A stretch of 64,000 bases of DNA, from contig NZ_QKYU01000015.1 of the NCBI RefSeq assembly GCF_003253705.1, positions 1 through 64,000 of the forward strand. The letters are read 5' to 3'. Shown one piece after another: positions 10,725 through 51,365 of the stretch; within the stretch, counting starts at the first letter, position 1, and each line of letters starts with the position of its first letter. Made by a program: the position numbers and the translations under genes. The notes beneath the pieces are model-generated. The model was not told the origin of the DNA. It made no database searches and was given only the letters and a program-made list of their open reading frames with translations. Origin of the DNA: Humitalea rosea. GTDB lineage: Bacteria; Pseudomonadota; Alphaproteobacteria; Acetobacterales; Acetobacteraceae.

Positions 10725-11641
10725 GGGTCGTCCATCACCGGGCACCTCTGGCGCCGGTCGTTCTTGAGGGCCTGGCCCAGCGCTTCGATCGCGTGGCGGG
10801 GCCGCAGGAGCCGCTGGGCCAGCCGGGCACCGTCGCGGTGGTCACCAATGGCGGGCTCGGGCTCAGCGCCGAGTCCATGGCGCTGCTGCCGGAGCTGCGC
10901 GTCGTCTCCTGCTTCGGCGCGGGGCATGAGGGGGTGGATCTGGAGGCCGCCCGCGCGCGCGGCATCTGGGTGACCCACGCCCCCGGCACCAATACCGCGA
11001 CGGTCGCCGACCATGCGATCGGGCTGATGCTGGCCATCACCCGCGGCTTCCATGCCTCGGACCGCGAGGTGCGGGCGGGCAATTGGGACCAGGCGCGCAA
11101 GCCGCGCCCGACGCTGAACGGCGGCAGGCTCGGCATCCTCGGCTTCGGGCTGATCGGGGCGCAGATCGCCCGGCGTGCGGCCGCCTTCGACATGGCGATC
11201 GCCTACCACACCCGCCGGGCGCGGCCGGATGTGCCCTGGCGGCATGTCGGCTCGGTGCTCGATCTGGCGCGGGAGAGCGATGTGATGGTGCTGGCCTGCC
11301 CCGGCGGCGCCGCGACGCGGCATCTGGTCAATGCCGAAGTGCTGGAGGCGCTGGGGCCGGAGGGCTTCCTGGTCAATATCGCCCGCGGCTCGGTGGTGGA
11401 TACCGCGGCGCTGGTCGCCGCCTTGCAGGCGGGGCGCATCGCCGCCGCGGCCCTGGATGTGGTGGATGGCGAGCCGGTGGTGCCCGCCGCACTGCTCGCG
11501 GCCCCCAACCTGCTGCTGACGCCGCATGTCGCCGGGCGCTCGCCCGCCTCGCTGCTGGCCCAGCGGCAGACGCTCTTCGCCAGCATCGACGCGGCGCTCG
11601 CGGGCGGGCGGCCGCAGCATGTGCTGGCGGGGCCGGATTAG
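10721..11641 (+). CDS. D-isomer-specific 2-hydroxyacid dehydrogenase (glyoxylate/hydroxypyruvate reductase type)
   Basis: The 306-residue protein has the NAD(P)-binding LGFGLIGAQIARR in the centre, and the catalytic elements VNIARGSVVDTAAL (Arg region) and TPHVAGRSP (His) in the expected order. Such enzymes interconvert 2-oxo acids and D-2-hydroxy acids, often glyoxylate/glycolate or hydroxypyruvate/glycerate. The CHTRR-like segment after the second beta strand (AYHTRRARPD) suggests NADPH preference, which is an inference. It lies downstream of a Bug binding protein, and together they could take up and oxidise or reduce a hydroxy acid. The start is not supported by a strong ribosome site. Confidence 0.85.
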   Translation: MRVVHHRAPLAPVVLEGLAQRFDRVAGPQEPLGQPGTVAVVTNGGLGLSAESMALLPELRVVSCFGAGHEGVDLEAARARGIWVTHAPGTNTATVADHAIGLMLAITRGFHASDREVRAGNWDQARKPRPTLNGGRLGILGFGLIGAQIARRAAAFDMAIAYHTRRARPDVPWRHVGSVLDLARESDVMVLACPGGAATRHLVNAEVLEALGPEGFLVNIARGSVVDTAALVAALQAGRIAAAALDVVDGEPVVPAALLAAPNLLLTPHVAGRSPASLLAQRQTLFASIDAALAGGRPQHVLAGPD

Positions 11642-11666
11642 GCGGGCCGGATTAGGCGGGCCGGAT
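11630..11666. repeat. 14-bp tandem repeat between convergent stop codons
   Basis: The unit GGGCCGGATTAGGC is present 2.6 times (11630-11643, 11644-11657, partial 11658-11666). The first copy contains the stop codon of the dehydrogenase, and the last runs into the stop codon of the convergent hydrolase. The unit is not a multiple of three. Confidence 0.9.
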
Positions 11667-32425: not shown

Positions 32426-33193
32426 TCAGTTCCGCCGGGCGGGGGCGGCCGGGGCGGCGGGCGGGGTCGCGGGCGCCGCGGCGGCCGCGGGGGTGGCGCC
32501 CTCGGCCGGCAGCGTCACGGTCCGCAGCACGCGGTTCAACTGCTGCGCGACCTCGTCGGTCAGGTCGAAGGGCGCCTCGTTGAAGATCACCAGCGGGCGC
32601 GGCAGCACGAGGTTCACCCCACGGCTGGTCGCGACCTGGCGCAGCACGACGGCCAGGGCCTGCTCGATTTCCTGCAGCGCGGCCTGGGCGGTCTGCTCGA
32701 TCGCCCGGTTGCGCTCACGGAAGATGCGCTGCGCATCGGTGATGCGGTCCTGCAGGCCACGCTCGCGTTCACGAAGCTGGTCGGCGCTCAGGGTGGCGCG
32801 CTGGTTGGCGAGCGCCTGCTGCTCCTCCCGCCAGCGGCCCTGCTCACGCTGCAGATCGTCGTTCAGCCGCTGCCGGCGTCGCTCGATCTCCTCGCGCACG
32901 CCATTGAAGGCGGAGGAGACGCGCTGCACCTCGGGCACATCGACGATGCCGATGACGGCCGCCGGCGGCGGCTCGCCGGCCGCGAGCGGGGCGGGGTTCG
33001 GCCCAGCCGGGCGGGCCGGCGGGCGTGCGGGCGCCGGCGCGGGCCGGGCCGGGCGCTGCGCCTGCGGCGGCCGCTGCTGCCCCCCACCAGGGACGAACCA
33101 TTCCTGCTGGGCCTGCGCCAGCGCGGGGGCCGGCAGAAGCGGAAGGATAAGGCTCAGGCCCGCCACGAGGGCGGCGGTTGCGCGAAGCGCCAT
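32426..33193 (-). CDS. OmpH/Skp family periplasmic chaperone, Pro-rich form
   Basis: The 255-residue protein has a signal peptide (MALRATAALVAGLSLILPLLPAPALAQ), a long Pro/Ala/Arg-rich linker at residues 28-78, then a Skp-like core: VIGIVDVPEVQRVSSAFNGVREEIERR followed by charged coiled-coil helices (REQGRWREEQQALANQRATLSADQLRERERGLQDRI). Skp holds unfolded outer-membrane proteins for BamA. The linker and an Ala/Pro tail are not typical of E. coli Skp. The position between bamA and lpxD is conserved. Confidence 0.9.
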   Translation of the reverse strand: MALRATAALVAGLSLILPLLPAPALAQAQQEWFVPGGGQQRPPQAQRPARPAPAPARPPARPAGPNPAPLAAGEPPPAAVIGIVDVPEVQRVSSAFNGVREEIERRRQRLNDDLQREQGRWREEQQALANQRATLSADQLRERERGLQDRITDAQRIFRERNRAIEQTAQAALQEIEQALAVVLRQVATSRGVNLVLPRPLVIFNEAPFDLTDEVAQQLNRVLRTVTLPAEGATPAAAAAPATPPAAPAAPARRN

Positions 33194-40966: not shown

Positions 40967-41914
40967 TCAGTCCTTGGGGCCGACGCCGGTGGTCGTCGGG
41001 TGGGCGGTCCCGGCGGCGGCGGCGACTTCGGCGGCGAAATCGGCAGCCGGCGCCTTCTCGACGCCTTCGCCCAGGTGGAAGCGGGCGAAGCCGGTGAGCT
41101 TGGCGCCCGCCTTCTCGACGATGACCTTCACCCGGCTCTCGCCGTCATGCACCCAGACCTGCTCCAGCAGCACCACTTCCTCGTAGTACTTGCGGATGCG
41201 GCCCTCGACCATCTTGGCGATGATCGCCTCCGGCTTGCCCGAGGCGCGGGCCTGCTCGGAGAGCACGTCCTGCTCGCGGTGCAGCGCGGAGGGATCGACG
41301 CCGGAAACCTCCAGCGCCTCCGGCTTGGCGGCGGCGACATGCATGCCGATCTGGCGGCCGAGGACTTCGAGCGCATCGATCTCGGAGGGGGCTTCGAGCC
41401 CCACCAGCACGCCGATCTTGCCGAGGCCCGGCTTGATCGCATTGTGCATATAGGTCGCGACGATGCCGGATTCGACGCGCAGCACCTTGGCGCGGCGGAT
41501 CGTCATGTGTTCGCCGATGGTGGCGATCAGGCGGGTCAACTCGTCGCCGACGGTGTGGAGGGTCCCGGGGTAGGTCGCGGCCTTCAGCGCCTCGACGTCG
41601 TCACCGACCGAGAGGGTGAGCCCGGCGACTTCGGCCACGAAATTCTGGAAGGGCTCGCTGCGGCCGACGAAATCGGTCTCGGCGTTGACTTCGACCATGC
41701 CGGCGACCTTGGGGCCGGAGGCGACGCCGACGAGGCCTTCGGTCGCGGCGCGGCCGGCCTTCTTGGCGGCCGAGGACAGGCCCTTCTTGCGCAGCCAGTC
41801 GATGGCCGCTTCCATCTCGCCGCCGTTTTCGACGAGCGCCTTCTTGCAATCCATCATGCCGGCGCCGGTGCGTTCACGCAGGTCGCGCACCAGCAAAGGG
41901 GTAATCTCGGCCAT
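40967..41914 (-). CDS. tsf: Elongation factor Ts
   Basis: The 315-residue exchange factor for EF-Tu starts with the UBA-like [19 protein letters not shown] and includes the core [47 protein letters not shown] and [23 protein letters not shown]. It is expressed with rpsB but separated from it by a 12-bp hairpin that may tune the ratio. Confidence 0.98.
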
Positions 41915-41987: not shown

Positions 41988-42860
41988 TCAGGCCTGGGCG
42001 ACCGGCGGCTCTTCGGCAGCGGGGGTCTCGGCGGCAGCGGGGGTCTCGCCGAGGAGTTCGGCGGCAAGCGCCTCATCCACCGGGGGCTCGCCCAGCACTT
42101 CGGCGGTCATGTCCGGCATGGCTTCCATCGGCAGGTCCTCGGCGGCGCCGAGATCCAGGCCGCTGGCCTGCAGGTTGGCGCTGATGCCGTCGAGCACGGC
42201 GCCGGCGACGCTGTCGCAGTACAAGGTGATGGCGCGGATCGCGTCGTCATTGCCCGGGATCGGGAAGGCGATGCCCGAGGGATCGGCATTGCTGTCGAGC
42301 ACGGCGATGACCGGGATGCCGAGCTTGTTGGCTTCCTCGATCGCCAGCTTCTCCTTGACCGTGTCGATCACGAAGATGATGTCGGGCAGGCCGCCCATCT
42401 CACGGATGCCGCCCAGGGCGCGGTCCAGCTTGGCGCGGTCGCGCGTCAGCATCAGGACCTCTTTCTTGGTCAGGCCCGCGGTGTTGCCGGACAGCTGCTC
42501 GTCCATCTGCTTCAGGCGCTTGATGCTGCCCGTGATGGTCTTCCAGTTGGTCAGCATGCCGCCGAGCCAACGGTGGTTCACGTAATACTGGCCGCAGCGC
42601 GTCGCACTTTCGGCAACGTATTCGGCGGCGGCCTTCTTGGTGCCCACGAAGAGCACGCGGCCACCGGCAGCCACCACGTCACGGACGGCGCGCAGGGCGC
42701 GGTCCATCAGGGGGACGGTCTGCTGCAGGTCGAGGATGTGGACCTGGTTGCGGATGCCGAAGATGAACGGCGCCATCTTCGGGTTCCACCGGCGGGTGTG
42801 GTGGCCGAAATGGACGCCTGCTTCGAGCAGGCCGCGCAGGGAAACGTCTGGCATCGCCAT
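41988..42860 (-). CDS. rpsB: 30S ribosomal protein S2
   Basis: The 290-residue protein starts [35 protein letters not shown] and has [30 protein letters not shown] and [31 protein letters not shown]-terminal Ala/Pro/Glu tail of about 60 residues is variable in the class. Its leader carries four tandem hairpins. S2 is known in E. coli to repress its own rpsB-tsf mRNA through the leader. Whether these hairpins serve that role is not known. Confidence 0.98.
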
Positions 42861-42972
42861 GGGCGATTTCTTCCTTCTTCAAAAGTCCGGTTGAGCCTCC
42901 GCGGCACGAAGCCCGGCGAATGCCGGGACCGGACCCTGGCCCCATGAGGGGGGAAGGGTGCGCCGCGTGCGG

Positions 42973-43088
42973 ATTTGCCCATCAGGCGACGCCTGATAAG
43001 CATTTGCCCGCCAGGCGACGCCTGACAAGCATTTACCCGTCAGGCGGCGCCTGACAAGCATTTGCCCGTCAGGCGACGCCTGACAGGC
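42973..43088 (-). repeat. Four tandem 29-bp hairpin repeats in the rpsB leader
   Basis: Units lie at 42973-43001, 43002-43030, 43031-43059 and 43060-43088 with no spacers. Each holds an inverted repeat like GTCAGGCGACGCCTGAC. The outer pair is A-T in unit 1 and G-C in the others. A change in unit 2 becomes a G-U pair in the minus-strand RNA, and unit 3 differs at the loop base. Pairing is therefore kept despite base changes. A separate stem CCCGGC/GCCGGG lies closer to the gene (about 42912-42927). The remaining bases of the 319-bp gap (42861-43179) show only a probable promoter. Confidence 0.88.
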
Positions 43089-43126
43089 GGGATTTGCTCC
43101 CGGGGGATACCCGACCAGCGGCGCGG

Positions 43127-43155
43127 TGTATGGCGGAATGCGCGCGCCGGGGCAA
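43127..43155 (-). promoter_or_regulatory. Probable promoter of rpsB-tsf
   Basis: On the minus strand TTGCCC (43150-43155) and CATACA (43127-43132) are 17 bp apart, giving a start near 43120 and a leader of about 260 nt that includes all four hairpin repeats. The boxes resemble those proposed for rplM. Confidence 0.4.
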
Positions 43156-43179
43156 CCCCGCCCCGGTGGCGCGGGCGGA

Positions 43180-44274
43180 TCAGGCCGCTTCGGACTCCGC
43201 CTCCGGCAGGCTGGCGGCGGGGTGCAGCAGCCCGTGGATGAAGCGCAGCTTCTCGATCACCGGCTGGCTGAGGAGGAAGGGGTAGAGGTCCGACAGGCCC
43301 ATGCTGCGGTTCAGGCTGTTCATGGCGAAGGTCAGCGGCAGCCAGGCATGGATGATGCGGTCGAAATCCGCCTCCTCATGCGGGTCGAAGTCGATCCTTG
43401 TCGCCATATCGGTGGAATCGCCGACATTCGGCCGCAGCCGCATGCCATAGGCGAAGGCGGTTTCCAGCGTATCCACCATATGCAGGTAATGCGCCGTGGT
43501 TTCCGCGAAATCCTCCCAAGGGTGGGAGGTGGCATAGGCGCTGACGTAATGCTCCTGCCAGTTGTCCGGCGGACCGCTTTCATAATGCGTCTTCAGGGCG
43601 GCGGCGTAATCGACGCTGGGGTCCCCGAAGACCTGGCGGCAGGCGTAGAGTACCTCCCCCTGCCCCGCGTCCCGCACCAGCCGGTCCCAGAAGAAATGCG
43701 CGATCTCATGCCGCATATGGCCGAGCATGGTCCGGTAGGGCTCGCCCATGGAGACGCGGCGGCGCTCGCGCTCGGCGTCATCGCCCTCGGCGAGGTTGAA
43801 GGTGATCAGCCCCTTGTCATGACCCGTCAGCACCCGCGGCGCCTTGGGGTCCTTCGGGTCGGCCAGCACGTCGAAGACGAGCCCGGCCTCGGGGTCCTCC
43901 TCCCGCGTCGGCAAGGGCAGGTTCAGGCGCAGCAAGGTGACGAACAGCCGGTGCTGGCTGAACTCGATGGTGCGCCACATCTTCATGACCTTGGGGTCGT
44001 CCAGATTGGGCGCCCTGCGATTGTGCCGGCAGCAACGGCAGAACCGGCCATCCTCCTCGATCGGGACCAGCCAGTTGCAGGTGCCGAGCGTCGCATTGCT
44101 GCATGCGCGGTAGAGCGCGCCATCGGCCAGCGCCCGCAGCCCCTCCTCCTCCGGCTCCACCGCCGAGAGAATGCCGGCGGCGGGCAGGAAGCCGAGGCCA
44201 TGGCCGCAGCGTTCGCAGCGCGTATTCTCGAAATACAGCGTGTTGCCGCAGGATTGGCATTCGAACAGACGCAT
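43180..44274 (-). CDS. Putative zinc-binding metallopeptidase with zinc-ribbon N-terminus
   Basis: The 364-residue protein starts MRLFECQSCGNTLYFENTRCERCG, a zinc ribbon with Cys6/9/20/23. A second cysteine group lies at Cys66/79/81/82. The peptidase motif HEIAH (189-193) is followed by YACRQVFGDPSVDYAAALKTHYESGPPDNWQEHYVSAYATSHPWEDFAETTAHYLHMVDT, where a downstream Asp/Glu and His may complete the zinc site. Members are common conserved proteins (DUF2248-like) of unknown substrate. The start at 44274 begins the ribbon. Confidence 0.83.
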   Translation of the reverse strand: MRLFECQSCGNTLYFENTRCERCGHGLGFLPAAGILSAVEPEEEGLRALADGALYRACSNATLGTCNWLVPIEEDGRFCRCCRHNRRAPNLDDPKVMKMWRTIEFSQHRLFVTLLRLNLPLPTREEDPEAGLVFDVLADPKDPKAPRVLTGHDKGLITFNLAEGDDAERERRRVSMGEPYRTMLGHMRHEIAHFFWDRLVRDAGQGEVLYACRQVFGDPSVDYAAALKTHYESGPPDNWQEHYVSAYATSHPWEDFAETTAHYLHMVDTLETAFAYGMRLRPNVGDSTDMATRIDFDPHEEADFDRIIHAWLPLTFAMNSLNRSMGLSDLYPFLLSQPVIEKLRFIHGLLHPAASLPEAESEAA

Positions 44275-51003: not shown

Positions 51004-51200
51004 GGGGCTGGGCTCCTGTTGGGACTCGCCCCTTCTTAAAGCACCCCCGCAAGGACGGGAACGCTGCCTGCGCTCAGAGCGGGCGTCACGCTGCACCGCA
51101 GCAAGAAAATTTCTAGAACACCCGTCCAAAAACAACTTTTCGCCGGTTTTCTGCCTTTGACGGGCCGAAATCGCTTGGCGTCCGGGAAGACACAGGCTAG

Positions 51201-51237
51201 AAAAAAAACGGGCCGCAGTCCTTGCGGACGCGGCCCG
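51201..51237 (-). terminator. Rho-independent terminator upstream of proS
   Basis: On the minus strand CGGGCCGC pairs with GCGGCCCG (51209-51216 with 51230-51237), with inner GTCC/GGAC pairing, followed by eight T residues (51201-51208). It ends a transcript that begins upstream of proS. From here to the proS start no gene was found. An AT-rich patch near 51105-51145 is the likeliest place for the proS promoter. Confidence 0.85.
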
Positions 51238-51365
51238 AGTTTAGGGAGGAAACGCCAGTCACACGGCAGGAAGAGGACCAGCCCTCTTCCTGAAGATGAG
51301 AATGGCGGAAGGGGTCGGGCTCAACAACGCGAAACGCGGGCGCCCGGCTCCAAAAATCAAGCACT
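51209..51365 (-). ncRNA. Candidate small RNA with CCUCCC motif
   Basis: The segment upstream of the terminator has no credible coding frame and folds strongly. A 9-bp stem CAGGAAGAG/CTCTTCCTG (51267-51275 with 51284-51292) is separated from the terminator by an apparently unpaired stretch that reads UUUCCUCCCUAAAC on the minus strand, which could pair with Shine-Dalgarno sequences. The 5' end is uncertain. A weak TTGCCG...TGTGAT promoter would place it near 51365. It could instead be the 3' end of the rnj-DUF1467 mRNA. Confidence 0.35.

Follow-up and report, generated by a model that had tools for sequence, protein, structure and literature searches.

The rpsB leader of Humitalea rosea carries four head-to-tail 29-bp hairpin units, and this array is an insert between a hairpin in the native 5' position and the S2 motif that precedes the gene. 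Our preferred explanation, which we put forward tentatively, is that the array is a lineage-specific tandem amplification of a 5' hairpin of the type found in rpsB leaders across the Acetobacteraceae, and that it probably protects or insulates the 5' end of the rpsB mRNA.

Layout of the rpsB leader

Within the 64-kb stretch of DNA that was analyzed (the window), the four units fill 42973-43088 exactly (4 x 29 = 116 bp), as the original prediction had it, with the minus strand being rpsB-sense. TRF returned the array at precisely these coordinates with a score of 191, the highest of any array in the window. The palindrome GTCAGGCG-N-CGCCTGAC starts at 42981, 43010, 43039 and 43068 with 2, 1, 0 and 0 mismatches, respectively, and its match count in the window was reached by no window shuffle. 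The units are contiguous, with no unique spacers between repeats, and we agree with the earlier view that they do not constitute a CRISPR array. Elsewhere the window holds clustered imperfect tandem repeats, very rich in GC and with a period of 9-28 bp (32432-33055), a perfect 14-bp repeat, GGGCCGGATTAGGC, in 2.6 copies (11630-11666), and, on the minus strand at 51196-51274, an Rfam match to the suhB / mmgR sRNA (RF00519; 43.5 bits, above the gathering score).

The promoter-like pair that had been noted upstream of the array is real (Table 1). It lies about 39 bp from the array at a position conserved among relatives, and it was through this conservation that the rpsB promoter was recovered, a generic sigma-70 scan having found no promoter. 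Transcription is predicted from the promoter position to start at about 43120; the native-position hairpin would then begin about 1 nt past the start and the array about 32 nt in. With a conserved promoter upstream of it the array is, as far as sequence tells, within the rpsB mRNA leader, as had been proposed, and would form part of the 5' untranslated region of an rpsB(-tsf) message. The refuting outcome named in the original prediction, a start of transcription beyond 42973, is to that extent disfavored. The tsf gene is the usual operon partner of rpsB, and an ORF resembling it lies downstream.

The distance from the -10 box to the S2 motif is 151 nt here; by the same measure it is mostly 25-39 nt in Acetobacteraceae, with a maximum of 64 nt once the AT-rich relative L080 is left aside, its promoter having probably been assigned wrongly. 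A first AAATCC occurs about 32 nt past the -10 box, as in relatives, and a second follows 119 nt further on. Measured from AAATCC to AAATCC, then, the insert is four units plus 3 nt, and we rejected an insert of exactly 4 x 29 nt. The array units repeat the native layout of a hairpin followed by CAAAU, and the 8-bp sequence GCAAATCC stands as a direct repeat on either side of the insert (43097-43090 and 42978-42971).

The original prediction knew of no described leader of this form. A described leader element, the S2 leader or rpsB motif (RF01815), starts two bases past the array, and the AAAU of the last unit continues into it. The match here falls below the gathering score of 40; RF01815-like segments in the leaders of other Acetobacteraceae and Magnetospirillum score 32-45 bits, and the model was matched by 8 of the 20 leaders in the cmscan batch (18 from Acetobacteraceae, one from Paramagnetospirillum and one from Bradyrhizobium). 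The motif's pseudoknot is present, with seven complementary bases between GUCCGGU (42934-42928) and ACCGGAC (42891-42885), and the motif lies directly upstream of rpsB, ending 13 nt before its start.

Table 1. Features of the rpsB region; array units are numbered in RNA order, with the numbering of the original prediction in parentheses.
Feature	Position	Strand	Description or basis
rpsB promoter	43127..43155	-	TTGCCC (-35, 43155-43150), 17-nt spacer, CATACA (-10, 43132-43127); conservation and pattern match
Native-position 5' hairpin	43096..43119	-	GCUGGUCGGGUAUCCCCCGGGAGC; weak, about -10 kcal/mol; position of relatives' single hairpin, and folds
Array unit 1 (unit 4)	43060..43088	-	11-bp stem, GUC loop, AAAU linker; U.G to C-G in stem extension
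Array unit 2 (unit 3)	43031..43059	-	loop U to C; outermost pair G-C to G.U
Array unit 3 (unit 2)	43002..43030	-	U-A to U.G
Array unit 4 (unit 1)	42973..43001	-	G-C to A-U double change
rpsB motif (S2 leader, RF01815)	42873..42971	-	cmscan, full length 1-132, 33.0 bits, E 7.4e-5
rpsB, ribosomal protein S2	41988..42860	-	290 aa; ORF; best-conserved match in 384/397 family genomes
ORF resembling tsf (elongation factor Ts)	40967..41914	-	downstream of rpsB; sequence identification by eye

Folding of the array units

The one-base loop originally proposed for the units cannot form in RNA. In the rpsB-sense RNA the stem of a unit has 11 bp and closes on a 3-nt loop, and a 4-nt AAAU linker comes next; this stem is longer than the arms of the DNA palindrome, the extra pairs lying outside the palindrome and being mostly U.G. 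The units, about 90% alike, are in RNA order GCCUGUCAGGCGUCGCCUGACGGGCAAAU, GCUUGUCAGGCGCCGCCUGACGGGUAAAU, GCUUGUCAGGCGUCGCCUGGCGGGCAAAU and GCUUAUCAGGCGUCGCCUGAUGGGCAAAU. Six substitutions set them apart from the unit consensus, five in the stem with every pair kept and one in the loop. Those described earlier for units 4 and 3, a double change from G-C to A-U and a single one from U-A to U.G, are as stated. For unit 2 the change in the loop was correctly read, but it is not confined to the loop, as the outermost pair also carries a C to U change (G-C to G.U), and unit 1 varies as well, with U.G replaced by C-G in the stem extension.

When six random substitutions were simulated, all pairs were kept with P = 0.01-0.12 according to the proportion of transitions, and requiring a double compensation in addition gave P = 0.002-0.02. 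By itself, pairing among the units is weak evidence for the selection on structure that had been proposed, being suggestive and not decisive. The proposal allowed for either RNA or a cruciform, and it is the former that the folds favor: the sense-RNA folds of units 1-4 (-22.0, -16.8, -18.6 and -17.7 kcal/mol) are stronger than those of the complementary strand (only -16.3, -11.6, -7.0 and -10.5 kcal/mol) in all four units, because G.U pairs exist only in the rpsB-sense strand, and RNA structure is therefore favored over a DNA cruciform.

The global minimum-energy fold of the array is one long rod, at -92.4 kcal/mol compared with -75.1 for four hairpins, an advantage of 17 kcal/mol for the full span, and the rod is seen in growing-prefix folds too. 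A rod of inter-unit pairs might be cut by RNase III, in which case the mature mRNA would start within or after the array. We regard this as improbable: local hairpins closed by 3-nt loops are the first to form as the RNA is transcribed, the unit variants preserve the local pairs, and the single hairpin of relatives is about 11 bp, which is too short for typical RNase III cutting.

Several other candidate identities for the hairpins were rejected. A site scan of the minus strand from 42700 to 43400 found no terminator-like site, and an intrinsic terminator or attenuator does not fit stems that are followed by AAAU linkers and not by a U run. Rfam miRNA matches to the array scored far below the gathering scores and are chance matches to hairpin-rich sequence. 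A leader peptide was considered on the grounds that a linker and the next unit read AAAUG; it was discarded because the repeat length is not divisible by three and there is no obvious Shine-Dalgarno sequence.

A 5' hairpin shared by Acetobacteraceae rpsB leaders

About 110 Acetobacteraceae rpsB leaders share a single plan, in which a TTGC-N-CATAT promoter is followed by a short gap, a GC-rich hairpin, (A)AATYC and the S2 motif; after (A)AATYC the sequence reads CRCACGCGG...GGGTCCGGTCC...CCGCGGAGG..CAACCGGA. A promoter could be assigned in 111 Acetobacteraceae leaders besides that of Humitalea rosea. In every one of these a stem of 6 bp or more separates the -10 box from the S2 motif, and the fold is a single hairpin in 109 and two hairpins in 2. 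The hairpin, with a median of 11 bp and -20.3 kcal/mol over these 111 leaders, starts approximately 4-6 nt past the -10 box and ends at the (A)AATYC before the S2 motif. It was seen in upstream regions L010-L081 and L146-L203, the Rfam model does not include it, and no description of it was found in the literature searched, of which coverage was partial.

For covariation, each pair was identified by where it lies with respect to the S2 motif, and pairs were counted against shuffles and slid controls. In 96 distinct sequences 73% of cells were paired, which is a lower bound given that the MAFFT alignment was built on sequence and sets some rows one base out of register; the figure never exceeded 63.5% in 500 shuffles, or 52% when the partner was slid as a control. 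Double-changed cells numbered 126, as against at most 89 in the shuffles, which keep the relatedness among leaders, and the comparison is not to be read as a probability. RNAalifold run on the raw MAFFT leader alignment returned no structure. The native hairpin is clearly under structural constraint, and this family-level covariation is stronger evidence than the pairing within the array.

In most other Alphaproteobacteria examined the hairpin is absent and the motif begins, as read by eye, at the start expected from the promoter. The mapped rpsB transcription start of Magnetospirillum gryphiswaldense is 6-7 nt before the motif (PMC9549626), and its nearness to the motif supports the placement of the promoter in the Humitalea rosea leader. 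A hairpin that is predicted to lie at or next to +1, and that varies in sequence while keeping its shape across the family, fits a protective or spacing role.

The original prediction also raised S2 binding by the array, and one could suppose that the hairpins bind S2 or an S1-S2 complex, serving as extra operator sites or as a decoy that tunes autoregulation. The array does sit in the leader of the S2 gene and adjoins the S2-responsive motif, but we find this reading very doubtful. The conserved and probably S2-responsive structure is the downstream RF01815 element, which is different from the array and intact here (PMC2704228), and which the array units do not resemble; moreover, the sequence of the native hairpin varies freely, and most other Alphaproteobacteria that have the motif lack this hairpin.

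Confinement of the array to a single locus

A genome-wide search for the palindrome had been set beforehand as a possible refutation of the original prediction. In this pattern search the palindrome was not scattered, its core occurring at this locus only in the 4.97-Mb genome, and BLAST of the whole array against the genome gave only the array locus above chance. In 100 relatives the palindrome occurred as 7 single copies, compared with about 5.6 predicted by base composition, and the array had no match in plasmid and phage collections. These results bear on another of the original suggestions, namely that a mobile palindromic element (REP/BIME-, MITE- or RPE-like) inserted in the leader. The 8-bp direct repeat flanking the insert could be taken as its target duplication, but the idea is close to refuted: there is no other copy in the genome, relatives are at chance level, there is no plasmid or phage match, and unit duplication accounts for the direct repeat, since relatives already have GCAAAT where the native hairpin meets the motif. 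REP/BIME or any other mobile palindromic repeat was likewise rejected as a class, as dispersed multiple copies were not found.

With exact promoter and motif letters required, such that diverged leaders would be missed, screening for about one or two extra units across 397 family genomes turned up a single real case, in G323. Larger spacings were screened only in the Humitalea rosea genome itself, as a positive control. The leader in question (L215; G323:C37:11075-11167, minus strand) places two consecutive hairpins, unrelated in sequence, between its promoter and the S2 motif. The array itself is present in 1 of about 110 examined family leaders and is known from one genome.

Origin and possible function of the array

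In the amplification that we favor, the array would consist of tandem copies of a hairpin-plus-AAAU module that Acetobacteraceae carry once, at what is probably the extreme 5' end of the mRNA. The native and extra hairpins together would keep the message paired at its 5' end, which could slow 5'-end-dependent decay (RppH, RNase E), and the hairpins may in addition hold the S2-responsive fold apart from upstream sequence, with S2 feedback presumably still acting through the intact downstream motif. The native hairpin is weak in the Humitalea rosea lineage, and its role may have passed to the four added ones. Precedent for such protection comes from E. coli, where 5' hairpins impede RppH and RNase E and stabilize mRNAs, although some messages (rpsO, and lacZ from T7 polymerase) are not stabilized by a 5' hairpin (PMC3997798). 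We infer the transcription start, the duplication origin and the protective or insulating function. Among the points against the explanation is that the unit sequence is not clearly derived from Humitalea rosea's own native hairpin.

The main rival is neutral tandem duplication, which we consider a realistic possibility given that a single genome carries the array. Replication slippage at the palindrome would have multiplied a native-type hairpin, the copies being tolerated upstream of the S2 motif, and pairing among the units would persist through hairpin-templated repair or through youth, not through selection. The restriction of the array to one family leader and the close likeness of its units are in keeping with this, as are the retention of pairing by chance in up to 12% of simulations and the proneness of palindromes to templated correction. 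However, (i) three of the variants make or remove G.U pairs, which correction toward perfect palindromes would not do; (ii) every change keeps sense-strand pairing; and (iii) the native hairpin is under clear structural constraint.

A bolder extension of the amplification model, which we think unlikely, is that tandem 5' hairpins form a natural copy-number module, a tunable shield or insulator placed before an r-protein feedback element, and that unit number varies between close strains and sets the level of rpsB-tsf independently of S2 feedback.

Comparison with known systems

The rpsB motif or S2 leader (RF01815, and t44, RF00127, in gammaproteobacteria) belongs to the same gene and the same leader, and lies just downstream of the array. 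Its P1 and J2/3 pseudoknot are kept in Humitalea rosea, the pseudoknot of the motif being formed by J2-3 with the 3' extension after P1 (PMC2704228). In contrast, the array is outside the motif, and described rpsB motifs have neither a 5' hairpin nor a tandem hairpin array. In E. coli, S2 is a translational repressor of its own operon through the rpsB leader; the S2 leader is among the more widely conserved r-protein leaders, and the mode of repression by S2 is still unclear (PMC10931766). A family-wide 5' hairpin that is multiplied in one lineage lets one ask, as in a natural experiment, what the 5' end adds to r-protein mRNA control beyond the S2 site, with a comparative series of 0, 1 and 5 hairpins in most other Alphaproteobacteria, the Acetobacteraceae and the Humitalea rosea genus, respectively. 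The family-wide hairpin before the S2 motif is the most useful by-product of the analysis.

The array resembles REP/BIME and other dispersed palindromic repeats in having short, GC-rich, palindromic tandem units in intergenic DNA, but differs from them in occupying a single locus within a transcribed leader, in sharing the layout of the native hairpin and in showing no dispersal. Literature searched for tandem 5' hairpins yielded nothing relevant. The stabilizing hairpins at the 5' termini of E. coli messages (ompA, papA and synthetic bla fusions; PMC3997798) are alike in having a stem, predicted to lie at or near the 5' end in the present case, that is independent of sequence and conserved in shape. 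Here, by contrast, there are five hairpins in a row, which stand before an r-protein feedback element and whose stabilizing role is putative.
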